Shown here piece after piece: positions 3,735-16,119 of a stretch of DNA of 64,000 nt. The notes below the pieces were generated by a model. The model did not search any database. It was given only the letters and a program-made list of their open reading frames with translations, and was not told the origin of the DNA. A program made the position numbers and the translations under genes. Positions within the stretch are counted from its first letter, which is position 1, and the number at the start of each line of letters is the position of its first letter. The DNA is from Sphaerochaeta sp. (GTDB lineage Bacteria > Spirochaetota > Spirochaetia > Sphaerochaetales > Sphaerochaetaceae), in contig JAGYOG010000006.1 in NCBI GenBank assembly GCA_018399495.1, positions 1 through 64,000 of the forward strand. The letters run 5' to 3'.

Positions 3735-3762
3735 ATTGCAATAAATTCACACTGCATGTCAA
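3735..3762 (-). promoter_or_regulatory. Probable rpsU promoter at the island junction
   Basis: On the minus strand a consensus TTGACA (3757-3762) is 16 bases from TGCAAT (3735-3740). The -35 touches the first base of the 30-bp direct repeat, so the island boundary abuts but does not remove this promoter. Confidence 0.4.
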
Positions 3763-3791
3763 GTACACCCAAGAGATTATTCCGATCGCTT
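3762..3791. repeat. Left copy of 30-bp direct repeat (putative attL)
   Basis: The 30 bases starting AGTACACCCAAGAG and ending CCGATCGCTT are identical to 13185-13214. There they span the last four codons and the stop of recJ plus 15 downstream bases. The left copy is therefore a stranded fragment of the recJ 3' end. The two copies bound a 9.4-kb segment of unrelated content, as att sites or a target duplication would. Confidence 0.8.
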
Positions 3792-3829: not shown

Positions 3830-5605
3830 ATGCTCAGAATTAGTTTGACAGCACAATATCTGTTTGGTTATAGTAGACTAAAGTTTGCCATGAAAAAACC
3901 TCGACAAAATTCCACAGCCTTACGCGTAATCCTCTACCTAATCTTTGGTGTGAGTACCATTATACCTATATTTTGCATCATTATTATCATTCCATCCTAT
4001 TTTCGAACACAAATGAACAACGAAAACTTGGAAAATATTGATGGTAATCTTATGCTTATCTCGGAACGAATATTGACGTATTTATCTGATATACAACAAA
4101 TAAATGGCCTTGCCTATAGTGAGCCTTTATTCGTGAATCTGTTGACCCAAGACACTGATACTCCCCAAGTGATTGACCTATCCCACGAAAAGCTCTTTCT
4201 AAACTCCATAAAAGTATTGAAGAACGATATCAAGAGTATTATTGTGTTTGCCCAAAATGATAATATCGTCTATTTTCACCGAAATGTGAATGCAAAATTG
4301 AAGACTGGATATGATTTTTCTTCCTTGATGCAGCATAGCACTATGGAGGATATCAACTTTATTGGCGCCCATAACCCCGATTATTTTGCGAATGATGGGA
4401 GATCCATGGTATTCTCTATGGTTCGGACGATTCGTCAACCGTATATGGAAGACAGCCTGGGGACAATACTCATTGACGCCGATAGTACTATGTTTGAGAA
4501 CATCTTTCGTTCTATTAACATGAAAGAGGGTATAGTTTCTCTTTTAATGGACAACGCAGGACAAGTACTCTATTCCTCCCGTCAAGTAAGCGACAATGTT
4601 CTATCTTCAATCAGGCAGGAGCAAAAGAAGATCGATATAGGAGAGATACAATACAAAGTCCTGCAGAAAAATGTTCCAATCGGAGACTGGAAGATTGTTG
4701 TCTTGGTTTCAGACTATGCCATCAACAGAAGCATGCGACTGGTTTATCTAGTGGGAATATTGACCTCATTGATTACGATTATCTTTACTTATGTTGTTTT
4801 TAGCTTCCTAAGTTCCCACTTATTGCTAAAACCCATCAAGGATATGGCATTGGTACTCAAGCAAGTGGAACAGGGAAATCTGGAGGTAAAATTCAAATCA
4901 TCCTACCATAACGAAATCACCCAACTGGGGGAGAATATCAATAGAATGATAAGCAAGCTAAAGATACTCATCGACCAAGAATATAAGATGGCCATAAGTC
5001 AGAAACAAGCGGAATACAGGGCCCTACAAGCACGGATTAAACCACATTTTCTCTATAACACGCTTAATTGTCTTATCGGACTGAACCGCCTTGGTGATAG
5101 GGAAAAACTGGAGAATGCAATCATCGATATGACCAATATGATGCGTTATTCACTTTCCGATAGCAAACATGGAATGTCTACCATAAGGCAGGAAATTGAA
5201 TTCATCAGTGATTATGAACGGCTGGAAAAATTACGATTCGAAGAGAAACTCGATTTCACCCTTGAGGTTGACAACAGGGTATATGATGCAGTGATTCCGA
5301 AGATGTTGATTCAACCTTTAGTAGAGAATTCGATACTACACAATGTAGAGAAGTCTGACGAACCGGTAAAAGTAATCGTCACCGTATCCTATCTCGCTAA
5401 CGAGAACAAGATATCCATTGTTATTGAAGACCATGGATATGGTTTTGATACTGAAAAAGAAAATATTGTCGGTACAGGTTTGCGTAATGTCCAGGAACGT
5501 ATCCGATATTGGAACAAGGATGGCTCCTATACTATCAATTCTATCATAGGAAAAGGTACCGTAATCGAAATTCTGATTCCAATGCTACAGGATCAAAGCT
5601 CATGA
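3830..5605 (+). CDS. Sensor histidine kinase, YesM/LytS type
   Basis: The protein is a membrane sensor kinase of the His_kinase/HATPase_c class used by YesM-YesN systems. It has a membrane segment near residues 31-57, an extracytoplasmic sensing region to about 300, a second membrane segment (about 303-327), a HAMP linker, and the phosphoacceptor motif IKPHFLYNTLN with His406. The ATPase domain follows, with PLVENSILHN (N-box), DHGYGFD and GTGLRNVQERI. Its stop overlaps the regulator's start as ATGA. Start is uncertain: the ATG at 3830 has a weak GGA, and the ATG at 3890 (MKKPRQNS) gives a more usual short N-terminus. It probably senses the ligand or binding protein of the downstream TRAP system. 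Confidence 0.88.
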   Translation: MLRISLTAQYLFGYSRLKFAMKKPRQNSTALRVILYLIFGVSTIIPIFCIIIIIPSYFRTQMNNENLENIDGNLMLISERILTYLSDIQQINGLAYSEPLFVNLLTQDTDTPQVIDLSHEKLFLNSIKVLKNDIKSIIVFAQNDNIVYFHRNVNAKLKTGYDFSSLMQHSTMEDINFIGAHNPDYFANDGRSMVFSMVRTIRQPYMEDSLGTILIDADSTMFENIFRSINMKEGIVSLLMDNAGQVLYSSRQVSDNVLSSIRQEQKKIDIGEIQYKVLQKNVPIGDWKIVVLVSDYAINRSMRLVYLVGILTSLITIIFTYVVFSFLSSHLLLKPIKDMALVLKQVEQGNLEVKFKSSYHNEITQLGENINRMISKLKILIDQEYKMAISQKQAEYRALQARIKPHFLYNTLNCLIGLNRLGDREKLENAIIDMTNMMRYSLSDSKHGMSTIRQEIEFISDYERLEKLRFEEKLDFTLEVDNRVYDAVIPKMLIQPLVENSILHNVEKSDEPVKVIVTVSYLANENKISIVIEDHGYGFDTEKENIVGTGLRNVQERIRYWNKDGSYTINSIIGKGTVIEILIPMLQDQSS

Positions 5606-7032
5606 GAATATTGATAGCTGACGATGAACATTTGGCAAGAGTAACGGTACTTTCAATGCTCAATGAAATTGATAACACCTTTGAAGTCCTAGAGGTGAGA
5701 AATGGAAAGGACCTGATTAAGAAGGCTTTGGTATTTATCCCTCATGTCATTATTGTTGATATCCAGATGCCTTTGGTAAACGGGCTTGATGCAATGAAGC
5801 GAGTTAAGGACAGATTGCCCATGACAAAATGGATTATCTTGACCGGTTTTGCCCAATTCGCTTATGCAAAAGAAGCTGTTATTCTTCATGCATACAACTA
5901 TCTTCTGAAACCAATCCCATTCAAACACCTGAATGACATCATACTACAGGCCAATACAGAGATTATTCAAGAAATTGGTGCAGTAAATGCTGCATTCGAG
6001 CAGCGTTTACAAGCATTTTTACAACTTCCTGATCAGAGCAGTCTGGAGCTTTCATACTTTCAAGTGGCACTGATCTGTATAGATGAAAACGAGGATGGCC
6101 TGCCATGCGCTTTGAGCCATATGATTACAAATGCACAAAAAATTCTAGTCGATGACTTTGAGATTTTGGCAAGAGGAGCTGTCATCCCGTTGGATGAAAA
6201 AGTTTGTTGCATAATTGGAGGTTCCCAGGATCGGAACATACTTGAGAATCTGTTTGTTCCCGCCTTGTGGAAAATTCATCACCGTTTCTCTGCCTCTCGA
6301 TGGGTTGTATTTGATGCCGTCCAAAAAGGTTCAGGTACAATTATCTCTTCGCTGGACAGATGCAAGGAAGCCTGTTTCCTCAAAGCCTTTTTGTCTCAGA
6401 AAGAGTGCCTCGATGTATTATCCGTCCAATTATTGCCAAATACCGTAATTCTGGTTTCTATTGCCAACAGTCTGCAACAAGCATGGCTCAACAAATGCCA
6501 AGGGCGCGTCCTTTATGCAAAAGAATTAATAGAGTCTGCAGTTGTCAAATCAAGAGAACTACCGGAAATCAATAAAAATGAGCTATACCATTTACTCTGT
6601 TATTTGCATCGATTTGTACAGTCGAAATACCCTCTGTCTCCAGATGAGGTCTCTTATCAACGAATCAACATGGATTTGGATGATTTTCTACATTTGTTGT
6701 ATGACAACTCCTCAACACAGGTAAACACAATAATCAGTTATATAAAAAACCACTACAGTGAGGCGATTAGTGTAAAAGGCATTGCTTCAATATTACGGAT
6801 TTCCCCCAATTACCTCAGTGCGAAGTTTAGACAGGAAACAGGAAAGCGTTTTGTAGAATACGTATCTGAAATAAGAATAGACCAAGCAAAATTGCGGCTC
6901 ACTCATACGCAGATGCAAATTAACGAAATCTCCAATGCCGTGGGTATCCATGATGTACGTTATTTTTCTGATCTGTTTAGAAAGTATGAAAGTTGTACCC
7001 CTTCAGAATACCGTGCAAGGACAACTAAGTAG
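5602..7032 (+). CDS. Response regulator with AraC-type DNA-binding domain, YesN type
   Basis: The protein has 476 residues. The N-terminal receiver domain has the acidic pair D7-D8, phosphoacceptor D53 (VDIQMPLVNGLDAM) and K103 (YLLKPIPF). A long linker of no clear family follows. The last roughly 100 residues hold two AraC-type helix-turn-helix units (SVKGIASILRISPNYLSAKF and INEISNAVGIHDVRYFSDLF). The start chosen is the ATG overlapping the kinase stop (ATGA); a longer frame from 5509 would run inside the kinase gene. Partner of the preceding kinase, and likely activator of the TRAP and transketolase genes that follow at 7120. Confidence 0.92.
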   Translation: MRILIADDEHLARVTVLSMLNEIDNTFEVLEVRNGKDLIKKALVFIPHVIIVDIQMPLVNGLDAMKRVKDRLPMTKWIILTGFAQFAYAKEAVILHAYNYLLKPIPFKHLNDIILQANTEIIQEIGAVNAAFEQRLQAFLQLPDQSSLELSYFQVALICIDENEDGLPCALSHMITNAQKILVDDFEILARGAVIPLDEKVCCIIGGSQDRNILENLFVPALWKIHHRFSASRWVVFDAVQKGSGTIISSLDRCKEACFLKAFLSQKECLDVLSVQLLPNTVILVSIANSLQQAWLNKCQGRVLYAKELIESAVVKSRELPEINKNELYHLLCYLHRFVQSKYPLSPDEVSYQRINMDLDDFLHLLYDNSSTQVNTIISYIKNHYSEAISVKGIASILRISPNYLSAKFRQETGKRFVEYVSEIRIDQAKLRLTHTQMQINEISNAVGIHDVRYFSDLFRKYESCTPSEYRARTTK

Positions 7033-7119
7033 TTTTACCCCATACTATTAATAGAAAATATACGCTATATTTATGAATTACGCCCTTTTATCATACTAAT
7101 ATCTTTTAAGGAGGTCACT

Positions 7120-8118
7120 ATGATGAAAGGAAAAAAATCTTTGGTATTGGGATTGTTGTTCATCTTTGCAATGACATCGATGTTCGCACAAGGGAAACAG
7201 GAGAAAATTAACCTGAAGCTAGGCTATAGTTCTCCCGAGTCAAATCCTTGGCACGTGTGTGCCCAAGAATTGGCCCAGTATGTCAGTGAAAATACTGACG
7301 GAAACATAACGGTAAATCTTTTCCCTGCAGAGGTGTTGGGTTCTGACAAACAAATGGCAGAAATGCTTAAAATGGGAACACTGGACATGCATATCTGCCC
7401 ACAGGGTGTTGCTTCTGACTATGAACCGAAAATCGCGGCTATTGGGCTTCCTTTTCTTTTCGATTCCAACGAACAGGCTGCACGGTTGCTTGACGGTCCT
7501 ATTGGAGCAGAGTTGGTAAACGACTTACCGGCAAAGCAGAAGATAAGAGCCCTCGCATATTGGGAAAACGGTATGAGGCAGACAACAAACAGTCTTCGTC
7601 CGATTGTACAGCCTTCTGATTTGGAAGGAATGAAAATCCGCACTCCTAATGACAAAGTGACTATCAGTATCTATAAGGCACTAGGATCGAACCCTGCTCC
7701 TTTGGCGTACAACGAGTTGTACATGGCCTTATCGCAGGGTGTCTTCGACGGGCAGGAGAATCCAGTAGTAAATATTCATGCTTCCAAACTCTATGAGGTC
7801 CAGAAATACTTGAGTTTTACTAACCACAAGTATGAGTGCAAGATCTTTATGATCAGTGAATCCACTTGGAACAAGTTGACCCCGGAATACCAGAAGGTAA
7901 TTAGCGATGCAGCTAAGAAGTTTGCTGTTGAAAACCGGGCAATGTTTGCCGAACAGGACAAGACCCTCCGTGATGATCTGATTTCTAGGGGTATGAAATT
8001 GAATACACCCGATTTAAAACCATTCAGGGCAGCAACCGCTTCTGTCTACGATGAGTGGAAGGAAACTTTGGGTGCAGACCTACTCAATAGGATTGTTGAA
8101 TCCGCACAGGCTAAGTAG
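7120..8118 (+). CDS. dctP: TRAP transporter solute-binding protein
   Basis: Secreted DctP-family protein of 332 residues. A signal peptide (about 1-23, KKSLVLGLLFIFAMTSMFAQ) precedes the mature domain, which shows LKLGYSSPESNPWH, VNLFPAEVLGSDKQMAEMLK and the conserved GMKIRTPNDKVTISIYKALG segment that holds the carboxylate-binding Arg of the family. It would bind an organic acid or related ligand in the periplasm and hand it to DctQM. AAGGAGG lies just before the ATG; a second ATG follows at once. A hairpin after the stop separates it from dctQ. The ligand cannot be deduced. Confidence 0.95.
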   Translation: MMKGKKSLVLGLLFIFAMTSMFAQGKQEKINLKLGYSSPESNPWHVCAQELAQYVSENTDGNITVNLFPAEVLGSDKQMAEMLKMGTLDMHICPQGVASDYEPKIAAIGLPFLFDSNEQAARLLDGPIGAELVNDLPAKQKIRALAYWENGMRQTTNSLRPIVQPSDLEGMKIRTPNDKVTISIYKALGSNPAPLAYNELYMALSQGVFDGQENPVVNIHASKLYEVQKYLSFTNHKYECKIFMISESTWNKLTPEYQKVISDAAKKFAVENRAMFAEQDKTLRDDLISRGMKLNTPDLKPFRAATASVYDEWKETLGADLLNRIVESAQAK

Positions 8119-8132
8119 CAAATAGAGATTGG

Positions 8133-8171
8133 GGGAAAGATAGACAGGTTTGCCTGCTGTCTTTCCCTTTT
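8133..8171 (+). terminator. Intergenic hairpin between dctP and dctQ
   Basis: GGGAAAGATAGACAGG pairs imperfectly with CCTGCTGTCTTTCCC across a 4-base loop and is followed by TTTT. It can act as a partial terminator or 3'-stabiliser giving more dctP than dctQM mRNA. The dctQ gene has its own GGAGG site downstream. Confidence 0.6.
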
Positions 8172-8189
8172 CTACAGAAGGAGGAATGC

Positions 8190-8696
8190 ATGAAAAAAAC
8201 TCTGGATATTCTAAGTGAGAAACTCTGTACTATATGCAAAGAATTGGCGGCAATATTATTGGGTATTCTTGCTGTATTCATATTCGCTGGGGTAATTGCT
8301 CGCTATGTTTTCAATAACCCTTTTGTATGGCTTTATGAATTCACCTTGATCTTGTTCTCCTGGATGGTTTTCCTGGGAATAAGTGTGGCAGTAAAGAATG
8401 GGGAGAATGTCACCTTAAATCTTCTCGGAACATTGCCTGCAAAACTCAACCTTATGTTCGTAGTATTAACTAATATTTGTACTATATATTTTTTCTTTTT
8501 ACTTACAAAAGAAGGAATTGTTATTATAAAAAGTACTAGTACAGAGATGTATAACACCATCAATATCTCTACGGCTTGGTTCTATGTCCCTCTACCTGTT
8601 TGTGGCGTGATATCGCTTATCCATATGTTGGACGCGTATGTCGAAAAGAAAAATCCTTTGCAGAAAATTCAAACTGCTGCAATAGGGGAGGTATAG
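8190..8696 (+). CDS. dctQ: TRAP transporter small permease subunit
   Basis: The 168-residue membrane protein has four predicted membrane segments (about residues 16-38, 49-66, 88-110 and 128-150). The family region RYVFNNPFVWLYEFTLILFS is followed by FLGISVAVKNGENV. DctQ subunits help assemble the large permease subunit and couple to the binding protein; transport is driven by a sodium or proton gradient. GGAGG precedes the ATG and the stop is 3 bases before dctM. Confidence 0.93.
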   Translation: MKKTLDILSEKLCTICKELAAILLGILAVFIFAGVIARYVFNNPFVWLYEFTLILFSWMVFLGISVAVKNGENVTLNLLGTLPAKLNLMFVVLTNICTIYFFFLLTKEGIVIIKSTSTEMYNTINISTAWFYVPLPVCGVISLIHMLDAYVEKKNPLQKIQTAAIGEV

Positions 8697-8699
8697 ACC

Positions 8700-9974
8700 A
8701 TGGGTTGGGCACTTATAATATTTTTTTCTGCCTTATTGATTATCGGTGTACCTATTGCGGTAGCAATGGGATTCTCATCCATGCTTGTATGTCTGCTTTT
8801 CAATACATACCCGACGCTTGCCATAGTACATAGGCTAGCGGGAGGCATCGATAGCTATGTATTGATTTCTATCCCCTTCTTCATCCTTGCCGGTGAAATT
8901 ATGAATACTGGAGGAATTACTACAAGGATCTTCAACTTTGCCAACCTAGTGGTGGGAAAAGTCCCAGGAGGGATGGCCCATACCAATGTTCTGGCAAGTA
9001 TCATCTTTTCCGGGATGTCCGGATCGGCAGTTGCTGATACAGGAGGTCTTGGTATGATAGAGATGAAAGCCATGACCGACAAAGGATATGATAGGGAATT
9101 TTCTGCGGCTGTGACCTGCGCGTCTGCAACCATAGGCCCAATCATTCCTCCGAGCATACCTATGATTGTCTATGGAGCAATGGCGGAAGTGTCTGTCGGG
9201 GCATTATTTTTGGGAGGCGTTCTTCCTGGGCTCTTGATGGGGGTGAGCGTGATGATAATCATATTTTTTATCTCAAAGAAACGTAAATACCCTACAAGGG
9301 AACATATTGTATTTCAGGAAGGGCTGGAGATCTGCAGACAAGCTATACTCCCTCTCCTAACTCCCATTATTGTCATTGGTGGTATTCTAACTGGTATCGT
9401 GACACCAACCGAGGCTGCTATCATTGCTTCATTCTACGCATTCTTCTTGAGCATTTACTACAAGGAGATAACGTTAGCGAAGTTGATAAGAATGTTGGAG
9501 AATACGGCAATAAACAGTGGAACGATTCTCTTTATCATTGCATCGGCTACTTCCTTTTCTTGGGTGCTTTCGGTCGAAGGTATTCCCCAACGGGTTACTG
9601 AATTTATCCTTTCCCTTACACAGCAACCCTTTGTTATTCTAATTCTCTTGAACATCATTCTTTTGATTATGGGTATGTTCATTGAGGGTTTGTCCATTCT
9701 GACAATTATCGTGCCGTTCTTGCTTCCACTAGTGAATGCAGTGGGAATCGATCCTGTACACATGGGTGTAATGGTTGTCTTGAACGTAATGATAGGACTT
9801 TCGACCCCGCCTGTCGGGATGTCCCTGTTCGTCATCAATAAAATTGCTAATGTGGAGATGAGGAATTTATATAAGGAGATAATGCCTTTGATCATACCAC
9901 TGATCATTGTCTTACTTCTGGTAACGTATGTGCCACAGATATCAGTTTTTCTCCCTCAGCTTCTGATGAACTAA
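8700..9974 (+). CDS. dctM: TRAP transporter large permease subunit
   Basis: The 424-residue integral membrane protein matches the DctM/YiaN family. Signatures include IPFFILAGEIMNTGGITTRIF, GMAHTNVLASIIFSGMSGSA, the PIIPPSIPMIVYGAM loop and GLSTPPVGMSLFV, with about 12 membrane spans. This subunit forms the transport channel. It begins 3 bases after dctQ and is followed after 25 bases by the split transketolase genes, so uptake and metabolism appear co-transcribed. Confidence 0.95.
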   Translation: MGWALIIFFSALLIIGVPIAVAMGFSSMLVCLLFNTYPTLAIVHRLAGGIDSYVLISIPFFILAGEIMNTGGITTRIFNFANLVVGKVPGGMAHTNVLASIIFSGMSGSAVADTGGLGMIEMKAMTDKGYDREFSAAVTCASATIGPIIPPSIPMIVYGAMAEVSVGALFLGGVLPGLLMGVSVMIIIFFISKKRKYPTREHIVFQEGLEICRQAILPLLTPIIVIGGILTGIVTPTEAAIIASFYAFFLSIYYKEITLAKLIRMLENTAINSGTILFIIASATSFSWVLSVEGIPQRVTEFILSLTQQPFVILILLNIILLIMGMFIEGLSILTIIVPFLLPLVNAVGIDPVHMGVMVVLNVMIGLSTPPVGMSLFVINKIANVEMRNLYKEIMPLIIPLIIVLLLVTYVPQISVFLPQLLMN

Positions 9975-9999
9975 AATTATTATTTACAAGAGGACTTAT

Positions 10000-10842
10000 A
10001 TGGAAGAAAAAGAGAAAGAAAAGCTCAGTGATATTGCAAAACACGTCAGGGAAATAATTCTCACCATGATCTACGAGGCGCAATCTGGCCATCCAGGTGG
10101 ATCCCTATCTGTCGCTGACATTATGACGGTGTTGTATTTTAAACAATTGCAAATCGACCCGAAAAATCCTAAATGGAACGAACGCGATAGATTTGTATTG
10201 AGCAAGGGCCATGCTTGCCCTGCTTGGTACTCGTGTTTGCAACTCAGAGGATTTTTCGATGAGAAACATATCCATACTTTCAGACGAATGGATAGTATTT
10301 TGCAGGGGCATCCTGATATGAATAAGACTCCCGGTGTCGATATGACTACAGGATCCTTGGGCATGGGCGCAGCCGCCGCTGTGGGAATGGCTTTGGAAGC
10401 CAAGCTTGAAGGTTCTCCTCGTCGTGTCTATACCGTAGTGGGTGACGGAGAGTTGAACGAGGGAGTGATCTGGGAGGTTATGCAATCGTCGGTAAAATTC
10501 AAACTGGATAATTTTTGCATGATTGTTGATCGAAATGGACTGCAACTCGATGGTCCTACGAATGCTGTAATGCCAATCCATGATCTTACTCAGATTATCG
10601 AAGGCTTCGGATGGTACGTCCAAGAGATTGACGGTCATTCAATACAAGAAATCGATAAAGCTTGTTCAAACGCCAAGCAAAAGAAAGGCATTCCGAGTTG
10701 CATCATTGCAAATACGGTGAAAGGAAAGGGTGTCTCTTGTATGGAAAACCAATTGAAGTGGCACGGTAGGGCACCTTCGACTGAAGAGTACAACCAAGCT
10801 GTACGTGAAATCCGCAATGGAGGCTGTCGATGTATACATTAG
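10000..10842 (+). CDS. Transketolase, N-terminal (TPP-binding) subunit
   Basis: The 280-residue protein equals the first domain of transketolase. It has GHPGGSLSVAD, SKGHACPAWYS, and the thiamine-diphosphate motif beginning GDGELNEGVIWEVMQ and ending about 28 residues later at Asn (VDRNGLQ). Split transketolases work as heterotetramers with the following gene product, moving a two-carbon unit from a ketose to an aldose. Known split relatives serve pentose metabolism, apulose phosphate or sulfofructose cleavage; location beside a TRAP importer hints at a specialised substrate. The gene overlaps the next by 13 bases. Confidence 0.93.
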   Translation: MEEKEKEKLSDIAKHVREIILTMIYEAQSGHPGGSLSVADIMTVLYFKQLQIDPKNPKWNERDRFVLSKGHACPAWYSCLQLRGFFDEKHIHTFRRMDSILQGHPDMNKTPGVDMTTGSLGMGAAAAVGMALEAKLEGSPRRVYTVVGDGELNEGVIWEVMQSSVKFKLDNFCMIVDRNGLQLDGPTNAVMPIHDLTQIIEGFGWYVQEIDGHSIQEIDKACSNAKQKKGIPSCIIANTVKGKGVSCMENQLKWHGRAPSTEEYNQAVREIRNGGCRCIH

Positions 10843-11786
10843 AAAAAGCAAAAGAACCAACAAGAAAGGCGTTTGGGATACGTTTGAAGGAATATGGTGC
10901 AATCGATTCAGATTTTGTTGTCTTTGAAGCAGATATTGGGGCTTCCACCTCTTCTATATTGTTTGGTAATGAGTTTCCTAAACGATACTTCAATATGGGA
11001 ATTGCAGAATTGGGAATGACTGACGCCGCAGCAGGAATGGCTGCAGGGGGACGCACTGTCTTTGTTTCATCCTATGGTATCTTTTTGTCAACCCGTGCGC
11101 TGGAAGCAATCCGCACCTGTATCTGTTATCCGAACTTGAATGTAAAATTCATGGGTTCCCACGGTGGTTTGACCGCTGCGATTGATGGAGTCACTCATCA
11201 AGCTACTGAGGATATTGCGAATATTTGTACATTACCAAACATGAAGATGGCAGTACCCTGTGATACGAATTCTGCACGTAAACTGTTTGATCTTGCCATA
11301 CATACAGCAGGACCTTTCTATGTCCGGCTATTAAGGGATGCCTACTACGAAATCTATGACGAGGGCACGGAGTTTTCTCTTGGTGGCAGCCATGTCCTGC
11401 GGGAAGGGAAGGACATTACCATTGGAACGTATGGGGATATGGTCTTTCAGGCGCTTGCTGCTGCAAAAAGATTGGCTGAACAAGGGATTGAAGCAGAAGT
11501 AATCGATTTTTACAGCATCAAACCGTTTGATTATGCTAGGTTGGTTGCTTCAATCCAGAAGACCGGGAAATTGTTCGTAATCGAAAACCATCAGAGAAGA
11601 AACGGCTTGGGGTATGAAATTGCCGATTATCTTATTACCAATCGCTATTACATTCTATATAAACATATAGGGCTTGCTGATACTTTCGCAGAAAGTGGAC
11701 GATATCAGGAAATTCTCGGCAAATATCATCTGGATGGTTCAGCCATCGAAGAAGAGGTCAAGAAAATGATCGATACCTGTCGATGA
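10830..11786 (+). CDS. Transketolase, C-terminal (pyrimidine-binding) subunit
   Basis: The 318-residue protein supplies the second and third transketolase domains. The catalytic Glu region NMGIAELGMTDAAAGMAAGG, the FMGSHGGLTAAIDGVTHQA segment, then DTNSARKLFDLAI and a C-terminal domain with VIDFYSIKPFDY are visible. It would activate TPP bound by the N-terminal subunit. Translation is probably coupled through the 13-base overlap. No other sugar gene follows within the island, so a complete pathway would need enzymes encoded elsewhere. Confidence 0.93.
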   Translation: MYTLEKAKEPTRKAFGIRLKEYGAIDSDFVVFEADIGASTSSILFGNEFPKRYFNMGIAELGMTDAAAGMAAGGRTVFVSSYGIFLSTRALEAIRTCICYPNLNVKFMGSHGGLTAAIDGVTHQATEDIANICTLPNMKMAVPCDTNSARKLFDLAIHTAGPFYVRLLRDAYYEIYDEGTEFSLGGSHVLREGKDITIGTYGDMVFQALAAAKRLAEQGIEAEVIDFYSIKPFDYARLVASIQKTGKLFVIENHQRRNGLGYEIADYLITNRYYILYKHIGLADTFAESGRYQEILGKYHLDGSAIEEEVKKMIDTCR

Positions 11787-12115: not shown

Positions 12116-12947
12116 ATGTATTGGGATGACGAGTCTATGCAAGCGATCAGGGATGTGGTCGAAGGTAAAACCAATAAATTCAGGGCTTCCCTGAAGATTG
12201 GCTGTGTTCTTAGGACTGTATAACGGAAAGTCAGGGAGTACAAGACCAAGGGAGAGCAGTGCTTTGGGCACGGGAACAAGGGAAATGCGCCCTCCAACAA
12301 GATAGATTTGGATAGTGTTATTTATTCAAACATACGAATAAAAGATCAAGCGGGCCAACCAGACACTTCAGGGCATGATTCCCCACCGCCTTACCATGGA
12401 AAGGATCACTAGCTTTGATGAGGCGAACGAATATTTCCAGTCCAAGCTGATGCCGTACTTCAACGGGACGTTCGGCTATGGCTACGATTGGGTAGTTGGG
12501 TACAAGAGGTCTGTACAGTCCGTATTTGAGCCGTGTACAACCGGGCAGATCAGGACCCCCCTGTCAGTCCTGTGCGAGCGCGTAGTCAACAAGGGCAGCT
12601 CCATCAGCCTGAACAAGGTCTATATGGCCCTGTTGGACGAAAAGGGGAAACGCATCACTCTTCCTTACCATACAAAGGTCACCGTCGCCAAGCTTCTGGA
12701 CGGATTACTCTTCGCTACAACGAAAAATGATAGGTGCTATGCATTGGAACCCATTCCTGAACGGCATGCATTCTCACCTGAGATAGATACTGAGGACATG
12801 AAACCGAAGAAAAAGGCAAAGAGGCCGAAAATTCTGGCAAGCCATCCCTGGAGCTTTGAAAAACAGATGAAGTTCAGGGAAAACGATGCCCTGATGAAAA
12901 AGCTCGAACCGTGCTACAAGAGTCGGGACGAGTATCGATACGCCTAA
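12116..12947 (+). pseudogene. ISNCY-type transposase remnant
   Basis: The first part (12116-12335) reads AIRDVVEGKTNKFRASLKIG and then, past an in-frame TAA at 12221-12223, RKVREYKTKGEQCFGHGNKG, the N-terminal helix-turn-helix and linker typical of ISNCY-family transposases. The central catalytic domain is missing. A second frame, open from 12342, starts KIKRANQTLQGMIPHRLTME and continues DEANEYFQSKLMPYFN, the C-terminal part of the same family, then a beta-rich tail (LNKVYMALLDEKGKRITLPY) and a Lys-rich end. So the gene has a stop, a large internal deletion and a frame change, and cannot make transposase. Family assignment is from recalled motifs. Confidence 0.75.
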
Positions 12948-13184: not shown

Positions 13185-13214
13185 AGTACACCCAAGAGAT
13201 TATTCCGATCGCTT
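13185..13214. repeat. Right copy of 30-bp direct repeat (putative attR) in the recJ 3' end
   Basis: Identical over 30 bases to 3762-3791. Bases 13200-13214 encode the last four recJ residues (KRSE) and the stop; 13185-13199 are downstream. The island therefore restored an intact recJ end, as integrases that target gene 3' ends do. Confidence 0.8.
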
Positions 13215-15332
13215 TAGGTCCATGATGGTTAATTGCAAACTTTCCTGGTTGCGGAAATAATTTCTTCCTAATCGGAAGGCCACATTGACACGATCACCCT
13301 TGTCGAAATCACTTCCTACACGGTCTCCAGCACGCCAGAACAATGCAGGCCATTTATATTGGCCGAACGCCAGAGTCAGCTTAACATGCTGCACACTACC
13401 ACCTTTGTTATTCATGAACTGGATGTTTTCGATTTGGGCTCCCTCCATCATCAACATCAACGGAGGATTTTTCTCCCCATACGGCTCGAAGAATTCCACT
13501 ACCTTTATAATACCTGGTTTCATATAGGTTTCGGGAAGCGTTACATCAATGACCAACTCATCTTCCAAATCATCTATCATGCAATCCATGGTATCGATTT
13601 CATCTGCTACCCGCTTCTTGAATTCAGAAAGGTGCTCCACATCCATAGAGAACCCACCTGCGCAGGTATGTCCCCCAAAGTCAAGGAAGAGATCACTAAA
13701 ACGGGAGAGAAACTCACGAGCATCAAAATACTCAGGGCTACGCATTGATGCGGAAACCCGACTCTCATCTACAGTCGCAAGGACGATTGCCGGAGCATTG
13801 TACTGCCGTAGCAATCGACTTGCCATTAACCCTGTAATTCCCCTTGAGAGGGTGCTATCCTCAACCACGACCAGCTTGCTACCGGAACTCTCAAAGCTCT
13901 CTTGCGCACTACTCTTCATCCGTTCCCATGCGTCTTCTCCAAGCTTCTGCCGCTCCTTGTTCAGTTTAATCAACTCACCAGCAAGGGATTCGGCCTCGTA
14001 TAAATCTTCTGCAAGCAACATTTCCAAGGCAACTGTGGGTTTCCCCATTCGCCCTGAGGCATTGATTACCGGACTGATCTGCCAGGATATATCACTAGTG
14101 GAAAGTTGTTTGCCCATCAGGTTCTGCATGGAAAAAAGTGGAAGTAGATTTTGTCTACGACCTTGAGCAAGCACTTTGAGCCCACGTTTGACAAGAATCC
14201 TGTTCTCATTCTCCATCGGCATCAAGTCAGCAACCGTTCCTATGGCAACCAAGTCAAGTATCGTTTCATACTCAGCATCCAAGGAGGGATAACGCTTCAT
14301 ACAATAGGCAATGAACAGCGTATAGAGTACTTGTAGTTCATCCTTTCCATGGGGTGAATACCGTATGGCTCTACTGATATTGGAGAGGGCAAACAGCCCC
14401 TTTCCTTTTACCACAGGGAGGACCGCTTCCATTTCGCTGCGCATATCTATGAGATGGATATCAATTTTCTTTCCAAATGCCTGCCTTAATTGGGCAAGTT
14501 CTGCTGCTGCATCAAGTACCATAATGGGAAGCCCGGCAGAGAGGAACTCCAACGCTTTGCTCTTGCTTACATCAATAAGGCCAGGATTGATTTCCTCAAT
14601 CACCTGATCCACAACCAGGAGATTATCAATCCTCATAGCCTGTATAATCACCGTGTCATGACCAGGCTGTGTATGCAACAGGATGCACTCCTCCCGATAG
14701 AAATCTGTTTTACTGAATCTAAGTGCCCAAAGCACCTTTGCCACAACTCCACATCCTGCAAGATGCTCGAAAGGATATCCGCATCCTGGTACTTTCGGGT
14801 CGATGATGGCCAAGGCTGGCGGTAAGCTTTCTCCACTAATATGATGATCCAAGACAATGGTATCAATTCCCATGCTGTGCGCATGAGCAATCTCATCAAA
14901 GTTTGATATACCGCAGTCCACGGTAATGATTAGGGTCACATCCTGCTGGGAAACCAAGTCAACACCATCCATGGTGAGCCCATACGGTTCATCACCATTG
15001 GGAAGCTTATAGCTGACCTCAATTCCCATGGCTCGTAATTCTTGCACCAACAAAGCAGTACTGGTAATGCCATCTACATCACGATCTCCGAATACACAAA
15101 CCTTCTCCCCTTCAGTGACTGCTTCATTGATGCGGTCAACCACTTCTTCCATATCATCAAAAAGAAACGGATTATGGAGATAGGAAAGCTCACTCTCCAA
15201 ATAAAACTTAATCTGATCTCGGCTGGTTAATCCCCTCCTTGCTAGGATTGAGGAACTAATAACATCCAAACCATACTGTTCATGCAGACGGCGGATATCT
15301 TGGGACGAAACGGGAGACTTTTTCCAAACCAT
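13200..15332 (-). CDS. recJ: Single-stranded-DNA-specific exonuclease RecJ
   Basis: RecJ degrades single-stranded DNA 5' to 3' in recombination and repair. The 710-residue protein has the DHH-family motifs VFGDRDVDGITSTALL, LIITVDCGIS and TIVLDHHISG, then the DHHA1 region with SGRMGKP and GGHTCAGGFS, and a C-terminal OB-like domain. About 125 extra residues separate the GCGVVAKVLWAL and LDLVAIGTVADLMP segments that are nearly adjacent in most RecJ proteins. The ATG at 15332 is 31 bases after recO; a longer frame would overlap recO. Its last codons lie in the 30-bp repeat. Confidence 0.93.
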   Translation of the reverse strand: MVWKKSPVSSQDIRRLHEQYGLDVISSSILARRGLTSRDQIKFYLESELSYLHNPFLFDDMEEVVDRINEAVTEGEKVCVFGDRDVDGITSTALLVQELRAMGIEVSYKLPNGDEPYGLTMDGVDLVSQQDVTLIITVDCGISNFDEIAHAHSMGIDTIVLDHHISGESLPPALAIIDPKVPGCGYPFEHLAGCGVVAKVLWALRFSKTDFYREECILLHTQPGHDTVIIQAMRIDNLLVVDQVIEEINPGLIDVSKSKALEFLSAGLPIMVLDAAAELAQLRQAFGKKIDIHLIDMRSEMEAVLPVVKGKGLFALSNISRAIRYSPHGKDELQVLYTLFIAYCMKRYPSLDAEYETILDLVAIGTVADLMPMENENRILVKRGLKVLAQGRRQNLLPLFSMQNLMGKQLSTSDISWQISPVINASGRMGKPTVALEMLLAEDLYEAESLAGELIKLNKERQKLGEDAWERMKSSAQESFESSGSKLVVVEDSTLSRGITGLMASRLLRQYNAPAIVLATVDESRVSASMRSPEYFDAREFLSRFSDLFLDFGGHTCAGGFSMDVEHLSEFKKRVADEIDTMDCMIDDLEDELVIDVTLPETYMKPGIIKVVEFFEPYGEKNPPLMLMMEGAQIENIQFMNNKGGSVQHVKLTLAFGQYKWPALFWRAGDRVGSDFDKGDRVNVAFRLGRNYFRNQESLQLTIMDLKRSE

Positions 15333-15363
15333 ATATAACAACCTTTCATATAAGTATACACAT

Positions 15364-16119
15364 TTATATACTCGCCGCCTCCCATAAAATGGGAGAGGAG
15401 AGCGTCTTGAGCATCTGCTGACCAATCACCTGTGCGTACCTAAGCAAATATCGCTTGATACGTAGTGTGGCAGCATCGCTGAGAGGGACCTGGAGACTCT
15501 GTTCGAAGCTCATGGAGGAAGTCACCTCAAGATACCTGCGAGCTCCAGGGGGGAGCAAGAAATCTGCATCGAGACTGGCGCAAGCCTCACAACAGTGAGC
15601 AAGCAGACTCGTTGAAAAACTCACAACTTCAGTGCTCCCATAGGGACGACCACAGATGGGGCACCGCGAATAATCAGCACGGAGGCCAACCAAATCACTG
15701 AGCTGATGCACAAACTGGATAATAACCAAGTCTGTCTTCTGGGGCATGTTACTCAGATGGTCCAATGCCTGACTGAGCAATCGATATTCATCAGTGCTTT
15801 CACCACCATGTACCCTTAGGAGCAACTCACAGAAAAACAAGGCTGCATAGGTAGGATGTAGAGCCTCCCGTAATTCATCGTGGGTAGCGATCACCGTAAC
15901 ATCCTTGAGCGTATAATCCTTCTTGACTGGATTGTAATACAAAAAGAACTGCCCATCGGTAAATACCTCAGCTTTGACCGATTTAAGAGACTTCTGGGCT
16001 CCATAAATCAACACATCGATAATACCAAAGTCCACAGTCAGCAACTTCAGCCGCCTATTCAGTTGGCCGTACCGTTGACTATGAAGTACAATGGCCAAAG
16101 ACGATACGTTACGTTCCAT
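15364..16119 (-). CDS. recO: DNA repair protein RecO
   Basis: RecO loads RecA with RecR on SSB-coated DNA. The 251-residue protein has the N-terminal OB fold (SSLAIVLHSQRYGQLNRRLK, LTVDFGIIDVLIYGAQ) and a helical C-terminal domain with a four-cysteine zinc site (CPICG and later CCEAC). The ATG at 16119 was chosen because GGAGGG precedes it; a longer frame exists upstream without a good site. It is the first gene of a recO-recJ pair and diverges from the DUF4105 gene. Confidence 0.9.
   Translation of the reverse strand: MERNVSSLAIVLHSQRYGQLNRRLKLLTVDFGIIDVLIYGAQKSLKSVKAEVFTDGQFFLYYNPVKKDYTLKDVTVIATHDELREALHPTYAALFFCELLLRVHGGESTDEYRLLSQALDHLSNMPQKTDLVIIQFVHQLSDLVGLRADYSRCPICGRPYGSTEVVSFSTSLLAHCCEACASLDADFLLPPGARRYLEVTSSMSFEQSLQVPLSDAATLRIKRYLLRYAQVIGQQMLKTLSSPILWEAASI

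Follow-up and report, generated by a model that had tools for sequence, protein, structure and literature searches.

A 64,000-nucleotide stretch of a Sphaerochaeta sp. genome (contig JAGYOG010000006.1, positions 1 to 64,000; hereafter the window) carries seven genes in one row, all present and open, that encode a YesM-type sensor histidine kinase, a YesN-type response regulator, a tripartite ATP-independent periplasmic (TRAP) importer (DctPQM) and a split transketolase (TK). Judged by its gene content, by a flanking repeat derived from the 3' end of recJ and by the insert-free recJ-S21 junction of its relatives, this gene row belongs to a catabolic islet acquired by horizontal transfer, and its TK, on phylogenetic grounds, is a specialised enzyme and not a housekeeping-type copy. 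We somewhat favour the view that the islet serves to take up a hydroxylated carboxylic acid, the keto form of which would donate a two-carbon (C2) unit to a sugar phosphate. Since related importer and TK genes occur together in other bacteria too, the pairing points to a putative sugar-acid nutrient broken down by transketolase. The islet is a new combination made of known parts.

Insertion site and gene order

The gene row sits within a 9.4-kb insert flanked by an identical 30-bp direct repeat, of which no copy is expected in shuffled sequence (Table 1). The S21 gene was present in all 26 genomes of the genus, and the fetched stretches of 20 of the 25 other genomes had recJ adjoining it with no insert between; among the five without recJ beside S21, two stretches reached a contig end and three (L181-L183) contained no recJ though the stretch continued. 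With up to three mismatches allowed, the repeat sequence was found in 8 of the 26 genomes, in two copies only in the genome studied here and in one copy in each of the other seven, and the junctions read in six of those seven carried an insert-free spacer. Two marks of a site-specific integrative element are therefore present: target-site sequence duplicated as a direct repeat, and relatives with an unoccupied site. The islet is lower in GC (41.8%) than the remainder of the window (46.5%), and among the matches listed for the 25 further genomes of the genus there was no DctP relative above 37% identity. Part of the islet was found at high identity in another genus of the same family (G090), where the genes from regulator through TK N subunit occupy a 4.8-kb contig (DctP 87% and TK N 77% identical; the C subunit is lost at the contig end). 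No integrase or recombinase was detected among the scanned islet ORFs, only a transposase fragment. A preliminary description of this DNA, made from the sequence alone, is extended by the finding that the row lies inside the 9.4-kb insert and is followed by this ISNCY-type fragment. The islet is a small unit of sensor, importer and enzyme in a row, moved in as one piece.

The same description had listed a YesM/YesN pair with overlapping genes, dctPQM and two TK subunits, and all of these were confirmed as open frames with the expected domains: the kinase and receiver domains of a YesM/YesN pair, all three TRAP components in a single row, and a TK whose ThDP (thiamine diphosphate)-binding and pyrimidine/C-terminal parts are separate subunits with the catalytic residues present. 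Kinase and regulator genes share a 4-nt ATGA overlap. The close spacing claimed for the remaining genes, within 25 bases, holds from dctQ to the end of the row (gaps of 3 nt for dctQ-dctM and 25 nt for dctM-TK N, then a 13-nt overlap of the TK genes) but not between dctP and dctQ (71 nt) or between the regulator and dctP (87 nt). Comparison with the G081 homologue favours the ATG at 3890 as start of the kinase, which also had a dCache match below cut-off. Positions 8110-8195 fold with an energy of -30 kcal/mol (z -3.4), and a hairpin after a binding-protein gene is common where the binding protein is made in excess.

Table 1 Features of the islet and its flanks (positions in the window).
Feature	Position	Strand	Evidence or remark
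30-bp direct repeat, left copy	3762..3791	+	repeat search; copy of recJ 3' end
YesM-type sensor histidine kinase	3830..5605	+	His_kinase (PF06580), HAMP, HATPase_c
YesN-type response regulator	5602..7032	+	Response_reg and HTH_18 (AraC-type HTH)
Regulator-dctP intergenic stretch, candidate regulated promoter	7033..7119	+	resembles G090 (L066), less G081
dctP, TRAP solute-binding protein	7120..8118	+	TIGR00787, 268 bits (cut-off 175); PF03480
dctP-dctQ gap with stable hairpin	8119..8189	+	folding of 8110-8195
dctQ, small permease	8190..8696	+	PF04290
dctM, large permease	8700..9974	+	TIGR00786, 446 bits; PF06808
TK N subunit, ThDP-binding	10000..10842	+	PF00456; best PDB match 6yak, E 2.2e-90; His residues kept
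TK C subunit	10830..11786	+	PF02779, PF02780; best PDB match 6yaj, E 6.1e-68; motif RSYHR
Fragment resembling ISNCY-family transposase	12375..12947	+	NF033594, 36.6 bits (cut-off 250, not reached)
30-bp direct repeat, right copy	13185..13214	+	repeat search; overlaps recJ 3' end
recJ	13200-15425	-	overlapped by right repeat copy

Transketolase clade and binding-protein site

Five TK N-domain matches were found in this genome, all open frames of 276-297 residues with a paired C subunit, so the islet enzyme exists alongside four other split TKs. A tree was built from 75 rows, namely 74 non-identical N+C pairs (N of at least 220 and C of at least 250 residues) and 6YAK; the truncated genes at L066, L068 and L069 were left out and L115 was added later. 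The islet TK grouped with that of G123:C86 (98/81), both within a six-row clade (100/100) that also holds G445:C22, G000:C13, G113 and G115 and that forms, with eight more rows, a fourteen-row clade (94/94). A tree forcing the islet TK to join the 15 housekeeping-type rows, that is the RpiB-linked TKs and their clade-mates, was rejected by the approximately unbiased (AU) test (p = 1.9e-6), and a housekeeping pentose-phosphate TK was discarded on this ground. The housekeeping label was taken from RpiB neighbours and from single matches at E 1e-40, and because the sole TK match of the single-match genomes G001 and G124 falls in other clades we use "housekeeping-type" as an inferred term. The specialised TK proposed in the preliminary description is in agreement with the position of the six-row clade apart from these rows.

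At the sugar head-group positions the C subunit has R12, S39, Y82, H111 and R169, a combination (RSYHR) present in all 14 rows of the clade and in none of the 67 other rows read, human TK included. According to PMC11659671 (section 22), phosphate-type TKs read RSFHR and the sulfofructose TK reads RAFDR. Because the catalytic His residues are kept, as are the R-S-H-R phosphate ligands, at least one partner of the islet TK is probably a sugar phosphate. The split TK of Carboxydothermus hydrogenoformans (6yak/6yaj), the best PDB match of both subunits, has the same two-subunit domain split and likewise keeps these His and R-S-H-R residues, but it reads RSFHR where the islet enzyme reads RSYHR (Phe to Tyr) and lies in another part of the tree, whereas the islet TK belongs to a TRAP operon. 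In one large clade of the order, RpiB-linked and other TKs read RAFDR (7 rows), RCFDR (5) or -CFDR (3), in L083 and L084 (G000:C6, C40), L097, L102, L126, L127, L132 and L118-L125. RAFDR does not look specific to the sulfofructose TK, as far as these rows indicate, and it is no proof either way because it also occurs in housekeeping-type TKs here.

TRAP binding proteins mostly bind carboxylates or sulfonates, and the islet DctP keeps, by alignment, R153, R174, N214 and the aromatic Y197 (152, 173, 213 and 196 in 4P47). An Arg/Arg/Asn carboxylate site with an aromatic residue is described for TRAP binding proteins in the available excerpts of PMC11668362, which also report crystal structures of homologous binding proteins with erythronate or pantoate bound and a member of the same broad group, IseP, that serves isethionate. 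Retention of the carboxylate and aromatic residues suggests that the DctP ligand probably carries a carboxylate or sulfonate. A phosphorylated ketose, one of the substrates considered in the preliminary description, is unlikely because of this retention and of the usual ligands of TRAP proteins. The predicted DctP model rested on a five-row alignment and, at a mean pLDDT of 66.7, was too weak for pocket analysis; a structure search with it returned TRAP binding proteins, with 4p47 first (Z 23.4, rmsd 3.1, 279 aligned) and tied with many.

Importer-transketolase loci elsewhere

A search of 139 genomes of the order yielded a DctP of the window type (at least 48% identity) in five of them, and a 392-genome draw from the phylum added one more; a profile search with the DctP alignment recovered four loci, all already known from the genome search. 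A TK stands beside this DctP at five of the six spirochaete loci (window, G090, G445, G089:C354 and G088:C824), assigned to the RSYHR kind by the tree for the window and G445, by identity for G090 and by closest match for the other two. The G445 locus combines its TK (57% identical to that of the window) with a short-chain dehydrogenase/reductase (SDR), two TIM-barrel enzymes, a BKACE protein and GntR regulators, and the G089:C354 and G088:C824 loci have a TK-SDR-DctPQM order at contig ends, with TK C fragments closest to those RSYHR rows that accompany a tripartite tricarboxylate transporter (TTT).

Across the fourteen RSYHR rows, the nearby importer is of the TRAP type in three (window, G123:C86 and G445) and a TTT in eight (G000:C13, G115, G123:C45, G122, G121, G032, G081 and G035); none was seen for G113, G038 and G078, the stretches of G113:C1 (~1.58 Mb) and G038 having 1.5-kb flanks and that of G078 lying near a contig end. 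Nine neighbourhoods were tabulated. All six of the TTT kind carry a 2-hydroxyacid dehydrogenase and a TIM-barrel enzyme, TIMb; G445 has TIMb without the 2-hydroxyacid dehydrogenase, G123:C86 pairs DctPQM with a Zn-dependent dehydrogenase, and the window has none of the three. BKACE was present in five of the nine. TTT clusters of Sphaerochaetales such as G000:C13 and G123:C45 thus share a TK of the islet's clade but have TTT in place of TRAP; they also carry the 2-hydroxyacid dehydrogenase, TIM-barrel enzymes and GntR regulators, and some of them BKACE. The preliminary description had treated TK as the only catabolic enzyme; that it makes up the whole pathway is disfavoured by the SDR, Zn-dependent or 2-hydroxyacid dehydrogenase, TIM-barrel enzymes and BKACE added at related loci. 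The G035 cluster also holds a gene of the four-carbon-acid-kinase type with a weak D-threonate kinase match (50 bits vs 450). Within 6 kb of 55 TK loci, in a non-random set of stretches chosen partly for TRAP genes, DctM was found in 16 and TctA in 12.

A further spirochaete locus, L070 (G089:C225, 106-5637), has DctPQM, a split TK and a PGDH_C/KARI_N protein, which we take to be the domain make-up of D-apionate oxidoisomerase; a two-enzyme apionate route is possible there. For the islet this route was rejected, PF16896 being present in 3 of 138 genomes but not in this one and the G089:C225 TK reading RAYNS, not RSYHR.

Beyond the phylum, we inspected 14 of 236 plasmid records with a DctP match, drawn from the 30 listed; the best homologues among the matches listed were 37-42% identical, those of the inspected loci 38-42%. 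A split TK was found in 10 of the 14 loci, with a related SDR in 8 of those 10, and a reductase related to L-threonate dehydrogenase in 8 of the 14 (the one member scanned had L-threonate dehydrogenase as its best NCBIfam match, at 310 bits, below the cut-off of 350). The SDR-split TK-DctPQM operons on plasmids of Rhizobium, Sinorhizobium, Azospirillum, Shinella, Sulfitobacter and Sphaerotilus resemble the islet in having a homologous DctP (34-42%) beside a split TK but differ in TK clade, in the presence of an SDR and in a LysR-type regulator where the islet has a two-component system; their records name the gene products and state no pathway. Seven proteobacterial TKs in the tree form a separate clade (SH-aLRT 100) with motifs PYYLR, SYYLR or AYYLR, and in the two members read Tyr and Ser replace human His37 and His110. 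Rows of SDR, split TK and TRAP genes were seen at L140, L142, L146, L147, L149, L152, L153 and L155, where the TKs read are strongly remodelled. As the TK clades are separate, the importer-TK pairing arose, or was kept, with different TKs.

In the part of the open-licence literature that was consulted, no paper on a TRAP-TK-SDR operon was found, and the available excerpts of PMC11770544 contain nothing on group 22. A Rhizobium cluster with a transporter holds two transketolases (PMC3333776, in excerpt) and a transketolase alpha subunit was detected only on mannitol (PMC5996035, in excerpt), but neither settles the substrate.

Proposed chemistry and competing explanations

In the scheme that we favour, the sensor pair would detect the substrate or a related signal and switch on dctPQM and TK, and the TRAP importer would take up a hydroxylated carboxylic acid resembling a sugar acid. 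The ketol donor would be the keto form of this acid, either taken up directly or produced by a dehydrogenase whose gene lies elsewhere, and the RSYHR TK would move C2 to a sugar-phosphate acceptor, probably glyceraldehyde 3-phosphate to give xylulose 5-phosphate, with release of a shorter oxo acid. If hydroxyl and carboxylate sit on one carbon beside the ketone, TK cleavage would yield a 2-oxo acid (glyoxylate or hydroxypyruvate), a class of compound that the 2-hydroxyacid dehydrogenase family, represented in the TTT clusters, takes as substrate. This genome has such a dehydrogenase and TIMb at its G000:C13 locus, where a TTT importer and a paralogue of the islet's RSYHR TK are also encoded; both enzymes may take part.

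Several observations weigh against this scheme. The islet has no dehydrogenase; the best SDR relatives in this genome are 35-38% identical, none of them among the islet genes; and BKACE, the TIM-barrel enzyme TIMa and the reductase were not found in this genome, which is 88.6% complete, by searches of which one had a control matching in 1 of 14 genomes and two had no positive control. A full pathway after the G445 model was therefore rejected for this genome, and the C13 locus supplies the missing set only in part because the 2-hydroxyacid dehydrogenase and TIMb alone were found there. In G081:C52 (L067, 6032-12076) a kinase-regulator-DctPQM set with a DctP 71-72% identical has no adjoining TK, the RSYHR TK of that genome being part of a TTT cluster on a different contig. 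Among the 14 plasmid loci, four (Chelatococcus, Neorhizobium, Skermanella and one of S. meliloti) have no TK, and at two Shinella loci the TK is about 7 kb away, adjoining a second TRAP set. The proteobacterial pairing, moreover, need not mean the same chemistry, because its TKs form a different and strongly remodelled clade.

The G081 set is also what would be expected if the TK were an extra pentose-phosphate enzyme riding with an unrelated importer, the acid entering central metabolism otherwise. The canonical R-S-H-R ligands agree with this explanation, which we nevertheless consider rather unlikely in view of the clade distinct from housekeeping-type TKs, the importer-TK pairing at 5 of 6 spirochaete and 10 of 14 plasmid loci and the four other split TKs that the genome already has. 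The presence of TK as the sole islet enzyme would be accounted for if the importer took hydroxypyruvate, or a precursor 2-hydroxy acid, and TK used hydroxypyruvate as an irreversible ketol donor with no further enzyme. Hydroxypyruvate is a textbook TK donor and the RSYHR TTT clusters carry a 2-hydroxyacid dehydrogenase, but no sequence feature singles it out and, to our knowledge, it is not an abundant nutrient in free form; we hold this explanation to be distinctly improbable.

SqwGH and AptAB are, like the islet TK, specialised split TKs of catabolic clusters (PMC11659671 and PMC13001218, both in excerpt), but neither role fits because the islet motif is RSYHR and theirs are RAFDR (as published) and ATANG (as read here). 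A sulfonated-ketose pathway of the sulfo-TK type, also raised in the preliminary description, would be in line with the isethionate transport by IseP (PMC11668362, in excerpt); the absence of the published RAFDR motif disfavours it, though RAFDR occurs also in housekeeping-type TKs here, and neither SQ isomerase, SEu isomerase nor a sulfoacetaldehyde enzyme, nor any sulfoquinovose-type partner gene, was present among the islet genes, to which this search was confined. We judge it very improbable. Just as little credit can be given to an apulose-phosphate pathway, for which AptAB offers the precedent of a split catabolic TK: AptAB of E. coli SE15 (locus tags from the excerpts of PMC13001218) groups with eight other rows (SH-aLRT 99), apart from the islet TK, and neither an FGGY kinase (aplK) nor an ABC importer is among the islet genes. 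The statement in the preliminary description that partner genes of both pathways are missing is correct for the islet.

Within the proposed import of a hydroxylated acid, 3-oxo-tetronate is an attractive candidate substrate. The RSYHR TKs might then define a route by which four-carbon (or branched five-carbon) acid sugars are used without a kinase, a suggestion that we regard as speculative and, in this specific form, doubtful. A tetronate such as D-erythronate or L-threonate, taken up by TRAP or TTT, would be oxidised to 3-oxo-tetronate, from which TK and glyceraldehyde 3-phosphate would form xylulose 5-phosphate and glyoxylate, the latter being reduced by the 2-hydroxyacid dehydrogenase of the TTT clusters. 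BKACE is an enzyme of beta-keto acids, and its occurrence in five of nine neighbourhoods, the erythronate and pantoate structures, the L-threonate dehydrogenase-like reductase and the G035 kinase-type gene all hint at this route, none decisively. The kinase/decarboxylase route loses the carboxyl carbon, which the tetronate route, if true, would keep. More generally, if the favoured scheme is right, split TK would be a recurrent tool for C-C cleavage of imported acids, beyond its pentose-phosphate role.

TK active-site classes (RSYHR, RVYNS, PYYLR, ATANG and others) can be distinguished from sequence. A second TRAP-TK cluster of this genome (L082, G000:C12:30000-48000, 3880-10282) encodes TK and DctPQM together with a protein of the Asp/Glu racemase family and, by eye and by similarity, a transaldolase-like one; its TK reads RVYNS, with the phosphate ligands mostly lost. 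In L084 (G000:C40, 1431-8669) a TK is accompanied by an FGGY-like kinase and, by eye, by genes for a type II glyceraldehyde-3-phosphate dehydrogenase and phosphoglycerate kinase-like and LarA-like proteins.

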